A stretch of DNA of 64,000 nt from Lysinibacillus pakistanensis. GTDB lineage: Bacteria > Bacillota > Bacilli > Bacillales_A > Planococcaceae. The notes under the pieces were generated by a model. The model was not told the origin of the DNA and ran no database searches. It worked only from the letters and a program-made list of their open reading frames with translations. Location of the stretch: positions 3,284,501 to 3,348,500 of the forward strand of contig NZ_CP126101.1 in the NCBI RefSeq assembly GCF_030123245.1, read 5' to 3'. Shown piece after piece: positions 47,324-55,899 of the stretch. The translations under genes and the position numbers were made by a program. Each line of letters opens with the position of its first letter. Within the stretch, counting starts at the first letter, position 1.

Positions 47324-48025
47324 TCACACATCATCTTGATGCAATTTCCTTGCCTGATGAGTAGCTAAATCTGCATATCTAACAGGGATTGGTAGACGGC
47401 TATCTTTGTCAATAAAGTGCATTGTTATATTTGTGGCTGTGTCTAAATCAATCCAGTTTCCACATGATACAAATATTGGCTTCACATTCTTTCTACTTCT
47501 AAGCGTACGCCCAAATACCTCTCCATCAATGACAATATCAGTAAATGCTCCAGCAATATTTTCAGGCATCGTGAAATCAATATTTTCAATTTTGTAGTAA
47601 GTTTTTGCTACTCCTATTGTTGGTTTCTTTAAGTAGAAGGAAGCATGTGTGGCAATTCCCATATGGCGCTTATGTAGATAACCATTCCCATCAAACATAT
47701 ATAGGCTTGGTTGAGTTTTCAGCTTTTTCACAGCTTCTAAAATAAGAGGCAATTCTCGAAAAGCTAAGAACCCAGAAATATAAGGAACAGTAATTTCATT
47801 TATATACGAAACTTGCTCTATCAAATTTTTTGATCTAAAATCAAAAACTTGTATACAGCAGGCTCCATACTCTTTTTTATTTTTATGCCAATAGGCAATA
47901 TCTAAGCCGGCTACAAGGCTAATTTGATTCTCTAAAAAATTATTTTGAAGAGAAATATGCTCCTTTAAATCATTTTGTTGTGCGATAAAGTTTTGTACCA
48001 TTTCATCTTTTTCCAAGACTAACAT
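47324..48025 (-). CDS. nfi: endonuclease V
   Basis: 233-residue nuclease that nicks DNA (or RNA) 3' of deaminated bases such as inosine. Motifs: VAGLDIAYW with catalytic Asp, VPYISGFLAFRELP, MFDGNGYLHKRHMGIATH with a second Asp, GVAKTYYKI, and VSCGNWIDLDTA. The ATG sits directly behind GAGAGGGG; the TTG at codon 4 has better spacing and may be used. Lies between the ComP-like kinase and the SUKH genes in the same direction. Confidence 0.9.
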   Translation of the reverse strand: MLVLEKDEMVQNFIAQQNDLKEHISLQNNFLENQISLVAGLDIAYWHKNKKEYGACCIQVFDFRSKNLIEQVSYINEITVPYISGFLAFRELPLILEAVKKLKTQPSLYMFDGNGYLHKRHMGIATHASFYLKKPTIGVAKTYYKIENIDFTMPENIAGAFTDIVIDGEVFGRTLRSRKNVKPIFVSCGNWIDLDTATNITMHFIDKDSRLPIPVRYADLATHQARKLHQDDV

Positions 48026-48165: not shown

Positions 48166-50523
48166 TTATCCTATGGTACTATGAACATGCCTTTTATTAC
48201 AGATATCGTAGTCATAAGTAGTGGAAGTATTTCCTTCATTCACTATAATTCGAATGGACATTCCTTCCCCTAAATTCGTATTGATTGAGAACTGACCATT
48301 AAAAGCTTGTACCCGTTCTTGCATTCCCCTAATCCCCATGGAATCAGCAAGAATAATATCATCCATCTTACAGCCAACACCATTATCAGAATAATTAATC
48401 TCAAATCCATCTTCTGTTTCAAATAGGTTAATTTCAACCGTATCAGCATATGAATGCTTCAAAGCATTATTCAATAGCTCTTGGAAAAGACGATAAATCA
48501 TTAAGTTTAAACGCTCATCTTCTAAGTAAAGGCGATCAATGGTATAAACTAAAACAAATTCAGCACGTTTATGAATTTTTTGAATAAGCTTCTCAAGGGC
48601 AGCATTTAGGCCCAAAGTATCTAATAAAGGAGGCTTTAAATTTTCACAATAGCCTCTTAAATCATTTAAAGAAGCTAGCATATGTTCATGAATCTTCGAA
48701 AGCTTTGTTTGAAGATCATCCGTATTCTTCGTACGGACAAGCACATCCATTTCTCTAGCGATATGTAGCTGTTCTTGTAGGTTTGTATCGTGTAACTCTT
48801 GTGCCAATTGATATTTTTCTTCTTCAAACCGTAGCCAAAGTAATTTATTGAGCCATGGCAATTGGCTTTTATCCGCTGCTTTCATATGCTTTAGCTGTTC
48901 TAATAGACCCTCAACCATTTTCGTATTTTCAATAAAATTATTTAAATACAGAAGCACTAGCTCTAGCCATAATAATTCCTCTTCTTTTAGATAAATAGAT
49001 TGATTATGATCCACAACTAGAATTCTTTTATAATTCGTATCTTGATGAATAAAGGCAACGTAAAAATGAGCCGTTTTCTTAATATCCCCTAACCGTAGCT
49101 GCTCAATGAATACTTCATCCACTTGATTTTGTGTATATTCTTTTAATTTGCTCGTTGAAGTAACGGCATGTGTGTGAAAATCATAGGTGAGGACATAAAC
49201 ATGATGGATTTCAAGATGCAGGGAGACTTCCTGAACAAATCTTTCTAGTAAATCTTCAATTTTTACCACTCTACCTATACTATCAACAGTTGTATACAAA
49301 CGATGGATATAATCTCCCTTTGTAGAAAACAGGATTTTCCGCTTGCGATAATCAATCTTCTCTTTTATATAAAAAAGGCCGATTAATGACAAAAAAGTAA
49401 AAAAGAAGATTTCTGTCATTCTTGAAATCGATAAATCAGTAATCCAATAAAGACCAATCATTAGCCAAATCGTAAAGGCAAAAGAGAAATTAAAATAATG
49501 ACGTAACCGTGTAATGAAGTATTCCATATCAAATAAACGTTCAGTGAGCTGTGTACAAATAAAACTATAAGGTATCAATACTAAAAAAAGAGAACAAATA
49601 TCTGCCGAAAGAATTTGTTTATGAAAGATAACTTCTGGTAACGCGTATAGAAACAGAAAGGGCATAAAAGGAATAATAATACTGCTCAATAATATTTTTA
49701 ATTGTGGTATTTTATATTTAAAATTCCCTGAAATCATAATCCCAAGAATTATGATAAGTAGTAAGAAAAATATCCCTAAGATTATATTTGAAAGCGCGAC
49801 ATGAGTAGAACTATTTGTAATACCAAAAATGCTTAAAAATACTACCGATAGAGGGAGTACATATAGAATCTTTATATTATTGATAAACAGCCATTTTATA
49901 TTTAAAAAATCAAAGTAAAGCCTTAAAAAATGAATTAAAAGCACAGGACATAGCAACATACTACTACGATTTACAATAATCCCCACATTGTTTAATATTC
50001 CAGACGCACCTATACTTACATATGCTAATGAAACTGTTAGTATAAATAAGATTAATAGATTTAATAATGGTGTATTTTTCTGTTTAAGGTACAAATATAA
50101 GGAAAGTATTAATGATAGGAAGTAATAAATAGTAGGTACAACAAATACATAATAAAATTGTTGAGGAATATCGAATGGTTTTATCTTTACATGTACTATT
50201 TCACCATTAGGTTTCTCTAAAGTTAATTTATTTGCTGTACGTATTACGAATTCATACTTTACATTGGAAATATTTTTTATATCTTTCCCATCTACTTTTA
50301 ATATAATATCTCCAGGCACTATTTCATACTTGTTAGCCCAATCCTTGTAGTATGGATTTGTTACTATCCAATTTTCGCCTTTTTCTTCTATTTCAATATT
50401 TATAAAGGGCTTACTATAAGATGTAAATAATAAATAAATCCCTATTATTACATATATACCTATAGTAAGCCAAAACCATCTAAATTTAGTTGACCTTAGT
50501 TCCACAAACGATTTTCTATACAC
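48166..50523 (-). CDS. ComP-type sensor histidine kinase
   Basis: 785-residue membrane kinase resembling ComP, the ComX receptor of Bacillus. Layout: helix 1 (16-34); an outside PDZ-like segment (YEIVPGDIILKVDGKDIKNI); then eight or more membrane helices to about residue 390; a GAF-like linker; HisKA_3 phosphoacceptor YQLAQELHDTNLQEQLHIAR; ATPase domain with LFQELLNNALKHS, DNGVGCKMDD and GIRGMQERV. GTG start at 50523; a GTG six codons later is possible. The gene overlaps the ComX-like gene by 28 bp. Unlike B. subtilis, no comA-type regulator follows. Confidence 0.82.
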   Translation of the reverse strand: MYRKSFVELRSTKFRWFWLTIGIYVIIGIYLLFTSYSKPFINIEIEEKGENWIVTNPYYKDWANKYEIVPGDIILKVDGKDIKNISNVKYEFVIRTANKLTLEKPNGEIVHVKIKPFDIPQQFYYVFVVPTIYYFLSLILSLYLYLKQKNTPLLNLLILFILTVSLAYVSIGASGILNNVGIIVNRSSMLLCPVLLIHFLRLYFDFLNIKWLFINNIKILYVLPLSVVFLSIFGITNSSTHVALSNIILGIFFLLLIIILGIMISGNFKYKIPQLKILLSSIIIPFMPFLFLYALPEVIFHKQILSADICSLFLVLIPYSFICTQLTERLFDMEYFITRLRHYFNFSFAFTIWLMIGLYWITDLSISRMTEIFFFTFLSLIGLFYIKEKIDYRKRKILFSTKGDYIHRLYTTVDSIGRVVKIEDLLERFVQEVSLHLEIHHVYVLTYDFHTHAVTSTSKLKEYTQNQVDEVFIEQLRLGDIKKTAHFYVAFIHQDTNYKRILVVDHNQSIYLKEEELLWLELVLLYLNNFIENTKMVEGLLEQLKHMKAADKSQLPWLNKLLWLRFEEEKYQLAQELHDTNLQEQLHIAREMDVLVRTKNTDDLQTKLSKIHEHMLASLNDLRGYCENLKPPLLDTLGLNAALEKLIQKIHKRAEFVLVYTIDRLYLEDERLNLMIYRLFQELLNNALKHSYADTVEINLFETEDGFEINYSDNGVGCKMDDIILADSMGIRGMQERVQAFNGQFSINTNLGEGMSIRIIVNEGNTSTTYDYDICNKRHVHSTIG

Positions 50524-50654
50524 AGCTCTTCATCAAACGAATCTAAGATTGCCTTTTGTTCAAGTTCTGTAATGCCAATAAGAGAAGCCTTTTTTTCTTT
50601 TAACAAAGATACTACTGACGGATTTTGCTCCAAAAATTGAATCATGTTAATCAT
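50496..50654 (-). CDS. ComX-like pheromone precursor
   Basis: 52-residue peptide gene immediately upstream of the ComP-like kinase and overlapping it. Features shared with ComX precursors: MIQFLEQNPSVVSLLKEKKA, then ASLIGITELEQKAILDSFDE, and a tail CIENRLWN whose penultimate residue is Trp, the residue modified by isoprenylation in ComX. ATG at 50654 with GAGGAG six bases ahead; a second ATG at codon 4. A sigma-A promoter lies about 100 bp upstream. No comQ-like prenyltransferase is present next to it. Gene identity is inferred from motif, length, position and partner. Confidence 0.78.
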   Translation of the reverse strand: MINMIQFLEQNPSVVSLLKEKKASLIGITELEQKAILDSFDEELCIENRLWN

Positions 50655-50683
50655 AAAATCTCCTCATTTCATATGTTTTTTTA

Positions 50684-50748
50684 TAGTTACACCTATTTAT
50701 ATGTTAATAATATCCTTAATAAGGTATTTTTAACCAACATTGTAACTA
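50684..50748 (-). other. leader inverted repeat of the ComX-like transcript
   Basis: TAGTTACA and TGTAACTA are exact complements at both ends of the untranslated leader, which begins at about the predicted transcription start. A CCTTAATAAGG palindrome (50714-50724) lies inside. The leader could fold into a 5' stem. Confidence 0.4.
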
Positions 50749-50755
50749 CATCTTC

Positions 50756-50783
50756 ATTATACTATCTTTTTACATTTGTACAA
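50756..50783 (-). promoter_or_regulatory. sigma-A promoter of the comX-comP-like operon
   Basis: Minus strand TTGTAC, 16-base spacer, TATAAT. Start of transcription expected near 50749, about 95 nt before the ATG. Confidence 0.65.
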
Positions 50784-51009: not shown

Positions 51010-51501
51010 CTATTTTCCAAACTCAACGTTAGTTATAGGCAAAACTGTAGAATGTTTGATTTCTCTTAATGATAAATTAGTTTGAATTCTTGATATACCA
51101 AGCTTATTTAACTTTCTTATAAAGCTATCCAGCTCCCTCCTGTCTCTTATTACTACCTTTAGCAGATAGTCGTATTCCCCTGTTAAACAATGACATTCTA
51201 ATATTTCTGGCATTTCCTCTAAAGTATTTTCCAAAATATCTAATTGTTCAGCTTGATGGATATTTGTGCTGATAAAAACATAGCACAGTAAATCAAATCC
51301 AAGCTTTTCTGGATTTAAAATTGCTACCTGTCTATTAATAAACCCTTCACTCTCTAAGCGTTTTATTCTTGTATGTGTTGCTGGTGGGGACAAATTAACA
51401 CGTCTTGCAAGTTCGGCATTACTTATTTGAGATTCCTTTTGTAAAATATCTAAAGTTTGTATATCGATGGCATCTAAAATTTTGCTGACAAATGATTCCA
51501 C
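51010..51501 (-). CDS. Lrp/AsnC-family transcriptional regulator
   Basis: 163 residues: N-terminal winged HTH (IDIQTLDILQKESQISNAEL, LSPPATHTRIKRLESEGFI) and a C-terminal RAM ligand-binding domain (LLCYVFISTNIHQAEQLDIL, HCLTGEYDYLLKVVIRD). Usually binds an amino acid and acts as an octamer. GTG start behind AAAAGGAGAATGTAA. Divergent from the EamA exporter gene, which it probably controls. Confidence 0.93.
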   Translation of the reverse strand: MESFVSKILDAIDIQTLDILQKESQISNAELARRVNLSPPATHTRIKRLESEGFINRQVAILNPEKLGFDLLCYVFISTNIHQAEQLDILENTLEEMPEILECHCLTGEYDYLLKVVIRDRRELDSFIRKLNKLGISRIQTNLSLREIKHSTVLPITNVEFGK

Positions 51502-52728: not shown

Positions 52729-55700
52729 TTATTCGATTCTTGTAGGATACTCTTCTATATATAATTTCTCTAATTGATTAGAAAGTTTATTAAAGGCATT
52801 TTGCCAAGCCTTTCTTGCAGCCTGTTTGTCATCAGCGTTTAAAATTGCCTCCTCTAATGTACGAACCTCAGCAACCTTTGCTAAATCATTTTCCGCTTTT
52901 GTCAGCTTTGAATAATTTTTTACTAAGCTTTTTTGAACTGTTGAAAGTCCTTCATATTCACTGCGCAAATTACCAACTTCAATCTTTAGATTGGCTATAT
53001 ATATGCCAGAGCTCACTATTTTGTCAATTTTACTTACTAACCCCAATGCTACATCATTTGATTCACGCTGTTGTTTTTCTTGTTGAATAATTGTATCTCG
53101 CATTTGACTTGGAACAAGATTTGCTTGCTGTGCTGTTAGTGCATTAAAGGCTTTTATTACATTTGGACTATTTTTTGCAGGGTTTTCTTGCATTCTATTA
53201 TATTGAGTAATGAAAGCCTCCACCTTTTTTACATCAGCCATTGCTTGTTTTAAGATTGAATAATTGATAACTTTCTTTTGCTCCGCTGCTGAAAGATTTT
53301 TATACTTACCTTCTAGTTGTTTAATATCCTCTATACTTGCATTACCGTCAGAAAGCTTAGCAATCGCTTGATCTAATTCGGTCAAATCTGTATATATGTC
53401 ATTATTTGTTAAAGAAGCAATTAAATTTTTATAGGTTTCATCTGCACCAGCAAGCTTTTGCTGATTAGCAGATAAGCTTAAATAAGCCTTTTGGACACCT
53501 TGAATTTTTGCATAACGCTTTTTTAAATCAGCCTCCATTGCTGCCGTTTCAGCTTTCTTTATAAATGACTGCACCGCTTTCACATCTTTTTCCGCCGCTT
53601 TTAATTCATTATAATTTGTCACATATTTACGCGCAGCTGATGTAAGTCCGCTTTTATACTCATTCACTAATTTTTCTATATCTTGGGCATAGCTTGCAAA
53701 ATTACTGTTTGGTACCGCAATAACAAGATTGATTTTAGCCACAAAGGCAGTTCCCAATTCCTTTGCCTTTACCTCAGCCTCAGGCAATGGTTTATCACCT
53801 GGTGGCTGCTCAGATGTTGAAGGTGAGAGAAATGTATTACTATTTTTCACTAAGGATTTTTGCAGCGTCGTTAATTTATTGAGTGCACTCAATGTACTGT
53901 TATACGTTGAATTTAGTTTGGAATAACTGATACCTTCTGTATTCAGCAGTTGCTTATATTTTTCAATTTGTGCCGTCACCTTGTCTGCAGCTTTTATATC
54001 CTTCTGCAATTGTAAAAGCTCTGTATAGCCTGTTATCTTTTTGGCATTTTCCTTCGTCAGCGTTTTATACATTGTAAGAGCTTTATTGATTTCCTTGGTG
54101 TCCTCTATCGTATTGATTCCTTTATACTCAGTAGTTGGCCCTAATGTAATATATTTATCTATCACACTTTGAACATTGGTAACATCTTGTTCCTCAGCCG
54201 TCTCTGCTTTGGCAAGATTACTACCCACATCGAAAAGGGTACTAGGAACTAGGCTTTGCTGTTTCACATTAAGCTTTTCGTAGGCTGTGTGGATGTTTTT
54301 TGCTGCAGCGACCTGTTTTTTGGCAGTAGTATTGACATCTATTTTATTAGCTTTATCTAAAAAGGCCTGCACTTTTTTAATATCGGCCTTTGCTGTATTT
54401 AAAATATCCAGATTTTGAACAGTCGATTTATATTCACTGGAAAGCTTGGCAATACGATCCTCTATCGCCTTAATGTTTTTCTGTAAATCAGAAAGTGAAT
54501 TTTTATATTTTACTAATTCATAGGATGATCCATTTGCCAGTGAATCTAAAAGCCCTAAAATTAATTTATTAATCTCTATTACCTCTGCAATATCTGTATT
54601 CTGTGATGCATTTCCTAAGCCACTCTGAATGTCAGTATACATGCTCATATCAATACTTCTTTGCAATAAATCTAACTTTTCATATTCTGAATCTAACGCT
54701 TTGAACTTTTGGATTTTAGTCGTACCATCCACTAATTTTTGTGCCTCGAGTATTTGATTTTTTAAAGACTTCACTACTTTATAATCCTCTATAGCACGCT
54801 TTAAAATATCATAGTTGGTCACATTTGTCTTAGCTGCTGCTGTTAATGCTGTATATTTACTTGTTAGGCTTGTTAGCTCATTACCAAATTGCGTAAAGCC
54901 TAAAGATTTATAGACAATAGCCTTATTTGAATTCCCTTCTAATAACTCATCGATAGATTTCACTAATCCTTCAGCTGGATTATTTGCTACTTCTACCACC
55001 TCGGAGTAACTAGGACCTGCTTCCGTTGTGCCAACAGTTACTATCACACGGACTACAATTTTATTAATTTGATTTTCTAATGCGTCTGTAGGAATCTTAT
55101 AGGTAGCACCTGTTGCTCCAGAAATAAAGGAATAGGAATCACCCATTTTATACATCCATTGGTAAGCATACGAAACCTGCTCTGCTTTTAAATCTCTCGT
55201 ATCATCTTTAACAGTCGGCGTCACAACGGATAATGTATCTCCAGGCAATACAAATTTTTCTGGTGAATACCCATTAATTTGTAATGGCGTAATAGAGGGA
55301 TCAGGATCTAACTTCAACTGTAGCGCATCGATTGAGATTGGTGTACTTGTAAAGTTTTTTCCATCCTCTGATTTTGCCTCTACAACTAACTGTTTCCCCG
55401 CCGCTTCAACTGGAACGGTAAGCTCTATATTTGTTGCACCTTTAATTAGTGTTTTCTTACCATTGTCAAAGAAATACCACTGGTAGCTCTTCATTACAGG
55501 TTTAGGATTGAGATTATTAATTTCCGGATAGATTTTACCGTTTACATAGGTATTTCCAGCTACTTGCAAGGTAGTATGGACAATCATTTTGTCACTTAAA
55601 TACTCAGTTCCATCTTTAGTTGTCACTTTCACAATAATGGCTTTATCAGCAGCACCTGCTGGTATCGATATCTTATGACCCACACCTATTTGAGTTTGAT

Positions 55701-55899
55701 TTTCTCCCTCAACTGAAAACCATTGATAGGAATCAATTTCTTTATCTTTTGGAACCAAAGAAGTATCGGCTGTTATTTCAGCCCCTTCAATATTATTTCC
55801 AGTAATTTTAACAATACTTGCTTCAGCCGCTTGTACTTCCATTGGCACAATTAGAGCCACTGGAGCTGCTGCCATTAAAAATAGTTTAGCTTTATCCAT
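52729..55899 (-). CDS. large secreted Ig-like/helical-repeat surface protein B
   Basis: 1056 residues, paralogue of protein A at 42.2 kb. Signal peptide MDKAKLFLMAAAPVALIVPM ending near VQAAEA. Residues ~25-300 hold three Ig-like domains (EIDSYQWFSVEG; MKSYQWYFFDNG; SYAYQWMYKMGDSYS, each with a following VPVEAAGK or IPTDAL strand). The rest is a chain of lysine-rich helical repeats (TNVTNYDILKRAIEDYKVV, KVINYSILKQAMADVKKVEA). No anchor motif is visible. ATG behind GAGAGGCGAGAAG. It is probably an extracellular structural or binding protein; function unknown. Confidence 0.82.
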   Translation of the reverse strand: MDKAKLFLMAAAPVALIVPMEVQAAEASIVKITGNNIEGAEITADTSLVPKDKEIDSYQWFSVEGENQTQIGVGHKISIPAGAADKAIIVKVTTKDGTEYLSDKMIVHTTLQVAGNTYVNGKIYPEINNLNPKPVMKSYQWYFFDNGKKTLIKGATNIELTVPVEAAGKQLVVEAKSEDGKNFTSTPISIDALQLKLDPDPSITPLQINGYSPEKFVLPGDTLSVVTPTVKDDTRDLKAEQVSYAYQWMYKMGDSYSFISGATGATYKIPTDALENQINKIVVRVIVTVGTTEAGPSYSEVVEVANNPAEGLVKSIDELLEGNSNKAIVYKSLGFTQFGNELTSLTSKYTALTAAAKTNVTNYDILKRAIEDYKVVKSLKNQILEAQKLVDGTTKIQKFKALDSEYEKLDLLQRSIDMSMYTDIQSGLGNASQNTDIAEVIEINKLILGLLDSLANGSSYELVKYKNSLSDLQKNIKAIEDRIAKLSSEYKSTVQNLDILNTAKADIKKVQAFLDKANKIDVNTTAKKQVAAAKNIHTAYEKLNVKQQSLVPSTLFDVGSNLAKAETAEEQDVTNVQSVIDKYITLGPTTEYKGINTIEDTKEINKALTMYKTLTKENAKKITGYTELLQLQKDIKAADKVTAQIEKYKQLLNTEGISYSKLNSTYNSTLSALNKLTTLQKSLVKNSNTFLSPSTSEQPPGDKPLPEAEVKAKELGTAFVAKINLVIAVPNSNFASYAQDIEKLVNEYKSGLTSAARKYVTNYNELKAAEKDVKAVQSFIKKAETAAMEADLKKRYAKIQGVQKAYLSLSANQQKLAGADETYKNLIASLTNNDIYTDLTELDQAIAKLSDGNASIEDIKQLEGKYKNLSAAEQKKVINYSILKQAMADVKKVEAFITQYNRMQENPAKNSPNVIKAFNALTAQQANLVPSQMRDTIIQQEKQQRESNDVALGLVSKIDKIVSSGIYIANLKIEVGNLRSEYEGLSTVQKSLVKNYSKLTKAENDLAKVAEVRTLEEAILNADDKQAARKAWQNAFNKLSNQLEKLYIEEYPTRIE

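Follow-up and report, generated by a model that had tools for sequence, protein, structure and literature searches.

Quorum sensing of the Bacillus subtilis type is encoded by comQXPA, canonically four adjacent genes on one strand. In these loci a ComX of family PF05952, with a Trp near its C-terminus, is followed by a HisKA_3 kinase, ComP, and the pheromone core and the sensor vary while the kinase end is conserved (Dogsa et al. 2014, PMC4008528). The genes comQ and comX and the 5′ part of comP are poorly conserved between B. subtilis isolates (PMC6334282), and Lysinibacillus is the only genus in the survey of Dogsa et al. (PMC4008528) whose two species have two comQXPA loci each. When an extra ComX-ComP system was engineered into B. 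subtilis (the ExtraCom strain) it was out-competed and selected against, and its authors were unaware of any bacterium in which activation-based systems run in parallel (Even-Tov et al. 2016, PMC4771773). Here we analyse a window, by which we mean the whole stretch of 64,000 nucleotides studied (G000:C1:3284501-3348500), from the one-contig, 5.25 Mb genome of Lysinibacillus pakistanensis. It carries a comX-comP pair, comX2-comP2, with no comQ or comA near it. We consider it likely that this locus belongs, as a satellite ComX-ComP module, to a hub-and-spoke ComQXPA arrangement, in which satellites use the ComQ and ComA of a complete hub locus in trans.

The original prediction had announced a 52-codon gene of the ComX type overlapping a ComP-type kinase gene, and both genes are present (Table 1), the end of comX2 overlapping the start of comP2 by 28 bp. 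The comX2 product has a leader beginning MINMIQFLEQNPSVVSLLKEKKASLIGITELEQKAILDSF and a core ending ELCIENRLWN, with the Trp penultimate, which places this residue within the C-terminal 5 to 10 residues as described for ComX (PMC4008528). A profile search of the peptide confirmed its identity (PF05952, E 1.3e-11, 44.6 bits for a curated cut-off of 25), and a chance open reading frame (ORF) is ruled out by this match. Moreover, a protein search with ComX2 returned 97 homologues, the weakest at E 2.5e-14 and all with a precomputed PF05952 match, which again makes comX2 more than a chance ORF. Their named sources are Lysinibacillus, except for one Bacillus sp. B14905 and one compost metagenome entry. 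Most are titled 'competence pheromone ComX' or 'competence protein ComX', NCBI names among them, and because many carry the former name from NCBI the family is not unannotated, as had been claimed. NCBIfam yielded nothing for ComX, and none of its kinase models exceeded the cut-off. ComP2 has HisKA_3 and HATPase_c, both above the Pfam cut-off and both used to define ComP by Dogsa et al. (PMC4008528), and its N-terminal half is hydrophobic by inspection; a scan of named genomes with the comP2 kinase found 35 loci, every record titled Lysinibacillus. The four-gene canonical arrangement is not found at this locus, which has comX and comP only.

This absence of comQ and comA, correctly predicted, is only local, and the suggestion that the partners are encoded elsewhere was borne out by a search of the genome. 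The hub, a complete comQ-comX-comP-comA locus at G000:C1:4784737-4788705(-), lies 1.45 Mb from the window pair; its ORFs of 300, 52, 768 and 210 aa overlap at comX/comP and comP/comA. The genome has three PF05952 genes, and the third belongs to another comX-comP pair without comQ or comA (about 2299800-2302300(+)). Searching the genome with ComQ recovered the hub gene (100% identity), a broken piece (34%) and one further gene (28%). The broken piece belongs to comP5-comA5 (G000:C1:1024218-1027780; L027 4219-7781), downstream of which comQ appears to be broken, lying in at least two pieces. The further gene lies in an X-Q-P-A-like set (G000:C1:4136035-4139776; L028 5036-8777), where a 54-aa ORF ending GSPGWK, presumably comX-like, overlaps a ComQ-like prenyltransferase gene, ComP-like and ComA-like genes follow, and the adjoining cluster is one we take by recognition to be lasso-peptide-like. 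Against solved structures, ComQ gave ten weak matches only, to general prenyl or terpene synthases. At E<=1e-35 the genome has two ComA-like regulators, hub ComA and ComA4. The latter is paired with ComP4 (comP4-comA4, G000:C1:2496902-2499713; L026 4903-7714), beside which no comX or comQ was seen. The ComP at 2497512 is not a pseudogene, as its 730-aa frame is open and a regulator of its own follows. ComP4-like kinases with an adjoining ComA-like regulator recur in Lysinibacillus.

The same layout extends over the genus. In a sample of 32 Lysinibacillus genomes, PF05952 is present in all, as are a hub-type comQ (59-100% identity) and a hub-type comA (71-100%). The 73 comX places comprise 31 with the hub-type comQ upstream (canonical), 33 satellites, defined as comX-comP pairs without comQ or comA, and 9 with another, divergent comQ (otherQ). 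No ComQ or ComA match at E<=1e-5 was found in any of the 33 satellite stretches (8.8-14 kb). Satellites occur in 26 of the 32 genomes, at copy numbers from 0 to 5 (two in G000, three in G021, five in G012). Their comX frame is open in 33/33, and a Trp, whose conservation in relatives was a point to be checked, stands in the last 10 residues in all 33, as in all 73 places. The comX-comP overlap is kept in 29 satellites, the other four having a broken comP; the H-box ELHDT and the N-box are present in each of the 29 intact ones. DDxxD is preserved, with no internal stop, in the hub ComQ of every one of the 32 genomes, and all 32 ComAs keep the Asp of D-x-N-M-P (31 by pattern, G024 as DVNMP). Three different transposase-like genes, so named by recognition, interrupt satellite comP at L105, L107 and L130, all in the sensor half. 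In the G002 hub (L084) stops interrupt comA from about residue 132 onward, where a sequencing error is possible; the comX and comP of the satellite of this genome are open.

In the scheme that we propose, the cell combines a single hub locus (comQ-comX1-comP1-comA) with at least one satellite comX-comP pair. Trp51 of ComX2 would be prenylated by the hub ComQ, with the conserved leader as guide; the peptide would exit the cell by the route that ComX takes and be sensed by ComP2 through its variable sensor, and ComP2 would phosphorylate, or dephosphorylate, the hub ComA. ComQ and ComA are probably common to hub and satellites, several dialects being spoken and heard through one output, although published theory had expected selection to disfavour such an arrangement. 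What can be read directly from the genomes is the layout, the common origin of the satellite ComPs, their retention in most genomes of the genus, purifying selection on the kinase half, a conserved leader and Trp, replacement of a comQ-free core/sensor block, and the split locus of one genome, G016. Judged by genes alone, the gene content fits parallel activation-type systems (at least two receptor pairs with one regulator). Satellite ComPs adding to ComA phosphorylation would make an OR gate, and satellite ComPs holding ComA down until their own ligand arrives would make an AND gate. The latter fits the published condition for the accumulation of extra systems, which requires dominant repression and facultative operation (PMC4771773). 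A bolder version is that two to six parallel ComX-ComP dialects run through a single ComQ and ComA, that unliganded satellite ComPs are ComA phosphatases (an AND-type gate), and that a new core/sensor cassette lets a lineage exploit its ancestors and still cooperate with its own kind; we regard this version as tentative and, taken whole, somewhat improbable.

When 68 ComPs were placed in a tree, a branch with a Shimodaira-Hasegawa-like approximate likelihood ratio test (SH-aLRT) support of 99 had all 29 intact satellite ComPs, and no others, on one side. The support was 81 when the tree was re-run with other outgroups and only two otherQ rows. Neither the ComP trees nor the distances nor the ratios of nonsynonymous to synonymous divergence (dN/dS) include the four satellites whose comP is broken, and the 68-ComP tree also lacks the otherQ rows G020 and G026, for which no neighbouring ComP relative was found. 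This grouping makes a single, early origin of the satellite within the genus, with retention since, the most likely history; one satellite group is kept in 26 of the 32 genomes, one per species.

The hub locus of G016 consists of comQ and comA only, 106 bp apart, both open and with nothing between them. The only PF05952 gene of this genome, with its comP, is on another contig, and at E<=1e-60 there is one other ComP relative, of the ComP4 type with its own regulator. The G016 ComP groups with the satellites; a canonical placement was rejected (approximately unbiased [AU] test, p 0.00031), which rules out that the pair is a relocated canonical one. Even if it were, comQ and comA would be in trans anyway. 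Since the conservation of an idle comQ-comA pair beside a missing comX-comP would be hard to explain, G016 is the strongest single hint of a satellite using ComQ and ComA in trans.

Satellite and hub products of the same genome are least alike in the pheromone core and the ComP sensor. The ComX leader is 0.68 identical between them (n=32, range 0.51-0.80) and the core 0.33, compared with 0.44 and 0.21 for a comX with its own, other comQ (n=9). For ComP (n=28), identity is 0.54 in the sensor, 0.77 in the dimerization and histidine phosphotransfer (DHp) domain and 0.72 in the catalytic region; the DHp value lends indirect support to phosphorylation of ComA by ComP2. Compared with all canonical and satellite ComPs, ComP4 of G000 gives 0.36, 0.56 and 0.48, respectively, and two ComPs with their own comQ give a DHp identity of 0.44. 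The leader of satellite comX is under purifying selection (nonsynonymous to synonymous polymorphism, pN/pS, 0.196). In the kinase half (from residue 501) the median dN/dS is 0.099 for satellites (27 pairs) and 0.086 for canonical ComPs (43 pairs); these are all pairs with kinase dS <0.6, they are not independent, and one satellite pair lies within one genome. The G031 satellite, with its broken comP, is absent from the identity and dN/dS comparisons and from the comA-ranked one below.

Between close relatives, the satellite core and sensor are exchanged as one block. Between the window satellite (G000 3335023) and that of the close relative G021 (2823980), dS is 1.78 in the sensor and 0.24 in the kinase. 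In 200-nt windows over five close pairs, the replaced block begins at the comX core and reaches about 1.1 kb past the start of comX, with 58-71% identity mid-block against 77-100% on both flanks; the limits given for the window were estimated from these five other pairs. The block holds the pheromone core and the ComP sensor, without comQ. In G007 and G008 the canonical ComP is identical, the satellite kinase is 100% identical and the satellite sensor 63%. As the first five pairs had been chosen by low canonical ComP distance, a bias against canonical swaps, pairs were re-ranked by comA DNA identity and also selected by kinase dS. The ranking covered 24 genomes with a canonical and an intact satellite ComP, and the pair with the most similar kinases was used where a genome has several satellites. 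In its six closest pairs (comA identity 0.954-1.000; three of them come from one trio, G002, G003 and G010), canonical sensors are 0.94-1.00 identical, satellite sensors 0.54-0.65 and satellite kinases 0.90-1.00. By kinase dS, sensor dS is 0.93-1.92 in 26 of the 27 satellite pairs, with kinase dS of 0.02-0.59. This raised synonymous divergence of the sensor points to replacement by recombination, not to selection on the protein alone. Over 21 genomes with one satellite each, the satellite ComP distance exceeds the canonical one in 182 of 210 pairs, which are not independent (means 0.264 and 0.213), and at 78% sensor identity the 31 canonical ComPs fall into 8 groups and the 29 satellites into 22. 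These data suggest that pherotype turnover occurs mainly at the satellite locus. Dialects would turn over most there because a swap of core and sensor needs no matching change of comQ.

Upstream of comX2, the AGGAG site had been correctly seen, as part of GAGGAG. The predicted sigma-A promoter fared less evenly: TTGTAC, 16 nt and TATAAT can be read in the sequence, and TATAAT and GTTG are conserved across satellite upstream regions, but a generic promoter scan of the region did not list it (18 promoter-like sites, 21.2 in shuffles). Downstream of TATAAT the satellites have a 5′ leader in which the initial 10 nt are able to base-pair with sequence close to the Shine-Dalgarno site. The window stem has 10/10 pairs, including one G-U. 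Of the 32 satellites tested (G012:C8 was without the search pattern), 31 form 9 or more of the 10 pairs, with loops of 32-100 nt; mononucleotide shuffles reach 9 pairs in 8%. The leader alignment holds 31 of the 32 leaders, L096 being the same as L094. Pairs are often maintained by G-U, and in one satellite both arms have changed together (TATAGTTTCA/TGAAACTATA), its sister copy in the same genome having only the 5′ change. Because the loop length varies, an RNA stem suits these data better than a DNA operator. A search of Rfam produced three hits, each of them under the gathering score and outside the leader, and no family for the stem. By eye, hub comQ upstream regions differ from the satellite ones.

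Several observations weigh against the hub-and-spoke reading. Six of the 32 genomes have no satellite (G005, which is 86% complete, G013, G020, G026, G027 and G029) and of the 33 satellite comPs four are no longer intact, an inserted transposase-like gene interrupting three and a disrupted frame that of G031; the module is therefore dispensable. Hub-hub identity exceeds that between a satellite and its own hub, both in the leader (0.75 against 0.68) and in the DHp domain (0.88 against 0.77). Satellite leaders do not track their own hub leader (0.676, against 0.685 for the hubs of other genomes; 25 genomes, permutation p 0.98), and no coevolution of ComQ and leader was thus detected. The G016 ComP is a long branch. 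Canonical sensors have also been swapped, with sensor dS >0.9 in 11 of 43 canonical pairs, all of them G001 or G022 against G017, G019, G023, G024, G030 or G031. The reverse pattern, a satellite sensor more alike than the canonical one, is seen in 3 of the 40 listed pairs (G015/G018, G004/G011 and G023/G030). Finally, residue H+3 is Asn in 31/31 canonical ComPs and Ile or Val in 23/29 satellites, a change that could mean a different output; ComP2 of the window has Asn.

The last point bears on the rival that survives best, namely that the satellite pair uses the hub ComQ but signals to another response regulator, controlling a separate set of genes. The same-genome divergence of the catalytic region would suit it, as would the 79 first-look candidates of the ComA search in G000, among which other related regulators may exist. 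We nevertheless find it rather unlikely, as no ComA-like gene adjoins any of the 33 satellites, the second of the two ComA-like regulators of G000 is already taken by ComP4, and comA of G016 is intact beside comQ though the only comX-comP pair is elsewhere. Less probable again is that satellites are listening or decoy loci, ComP2 being mainly an unliganded ComA phosphatase or hearing other strains, with ComX2 of minor importance. The DxxxQ motif, needed for the phosphatase activity of the HisKA_3 kinase NarX (PMC3510030), is indeed kept in 29/29 intact satellite ComPs, as in 31/31 canonical ones, but minor importance of ComX2 would sit poorly with a comX that is everywhere open with its Trp, a leader under purifying selection, and a core that changes together with the sensor. 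A variant pheromone processed independently of ComQ, the different processing once suggested, would account for the lack of comQ at the locus; the terminal Trp and the canonical leader argue instead for ordinary ComQ processing, and an intact hub ComQ persists in every genome, including G016, whose only comX is the satellite one, which makes this idea very improbable. Equally improbable is that the pair is functionless, as a duplicate in decay or a selfish passenger; the broken comPs and the variable copy number that this would explain are set against a kinase dN/dS of about 0.1, one satellite group kept in most genomes, and a conserved -10 element and leader stem.

Table 1. Features of the comX2-comP2 locus, in positions of the window.
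Feature	Position	Strand	Remarks
comX2	50496..50654	-	ATG start; 52-aa ComX precursor; PF05952 match
Predicted pheromone core, comX2 codons 42-52	50499..50531	-	Differs between copies
comP2	48166..50523	-	GTG start; 785-aa ComP-type HisKA_3 sensor kinase
Approximate allele block (comX core and first ~320 comP codons)	49563..50531	-	Replaced en bloc compared with the syntenic G021 satellite
Shine-Dalgarno GAGGAG of comX2	50660..50665	-	Sequence inspection; kept in satellite alignment
Stem 3′ arm TGTAACTATA	50682..50691	-	Near Shine-Dalgarno site; 49-nt loop in window
Stem 5′ arm TGTAGTTACA	50741..50750	-	Near expected 5′ transcript end
-10 element TATAAT	50756..50761	-	Sequence inspection; kept in satellite alignment
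-35-like TTGTAC	50778..50783	-	Weak match; GTTG conserved in relatives
Lrp-type gene	51010-51501		Upstream of comX2
Endonuclease V-type gene	47324-48025		Downstream of comP2

The two flanking genes are those named in the original prediction; we take them to be of the Lrp and endonuclease V types from recognition, without a profile search. Farther along the window (52729-55899) lies a gene for a large, secreted-looking protein of 1056 aa, relatives of which, 35-40% identical, adjoin many Lysinibacillus satellites.

Outside the genus, a family-level search of 261 genomes found ComX in 60 (an order-level search gave the same set). Among the 32 comX places in 28 genomes of other genera of the family, a ComP match adjoins all 32 and a ComQ match 28, and none is a comX-comP pair without both partners. 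The nearest case is genus g10 (L205, L206, L208 and L202), with comX-comP-comA and a comQ elsewhere in the genome: comX is away from comQ as in the satellites, but comA is kept downstream. One g10 genome, G067, has a short comQ-like remnant with a stop beside comX-comP-comA. In G059 (L211), two tandem comX genes with the same C-terminus, QKQPIWG, lie between comQ and comP.

Compared with comQXPA, the satellite is a two-gene locus lacking comQ and comA and standing alongside a complete one. Its replaced block comprises the comX core and the 5′ part of comP, comQ being elsewhere, whereas the polymorphic block of B. subtilis includes comQ (PMC6334282, PMC4408185). The second loci of Lysinibacillus in Dogsa et al. 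2014 (PMC4008528) are also unlike satellites in being comQXPA, one with a hypothetical comX on the opposite strand, and the accessible part of that paper makes no mention of comX-comP pairs without comQ and comA. Nor did a search of the open-access literature find a description of them, which is not proof of absence in print. As far as these searches show, what is new is the satellite of two genes, its persistence in most of the genus, the split locus of G016 and the role as the more often swapped dialect locus. The undescribed quorum-sensing branch that had been envisaged holds as a satellite module of the known ComQXPA family, not in any wider sense. Rap-Phr systems are intracellular and their peptides unmodified, and we know of no modifying enzyme that they share. 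They resemble the satellites in that signal-receptor pairs multiply and diverge (Even-Tov et al. 2016, PMC5199041), and differ in having repressor-type receptors (PMC4771773).

In conclusion, what was engineered into B. subtilis and out-competed there, an extra ComX-ComP system (PMC4771773), has a natural counterpart in the satellite pairs. In both, a second ComX-ComP system is found in a cell already having one; ExtraCom was added as comQXP with its own comQ, whereas the natural satellites are without comQ and occur in most genomes of the genus. Such retention, with the kinase half under purifying selection, represents either a natural counterexample or a different wiring (phosphatase-type, AND gate). 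Should the bolder version above, with its unliganded ComP phosphatases, be true, the genus would put to a natural test the rule that quorum-sensing systems of the activation type fail to accumulate, and the satellite locus would serve as a pherotype cassette of its own, free of comQ. The satellite pairs also uncouple pherotype change from comQ, and the many natural cores carried on nearly one leader make ComQ recognition of leader versus core testable.

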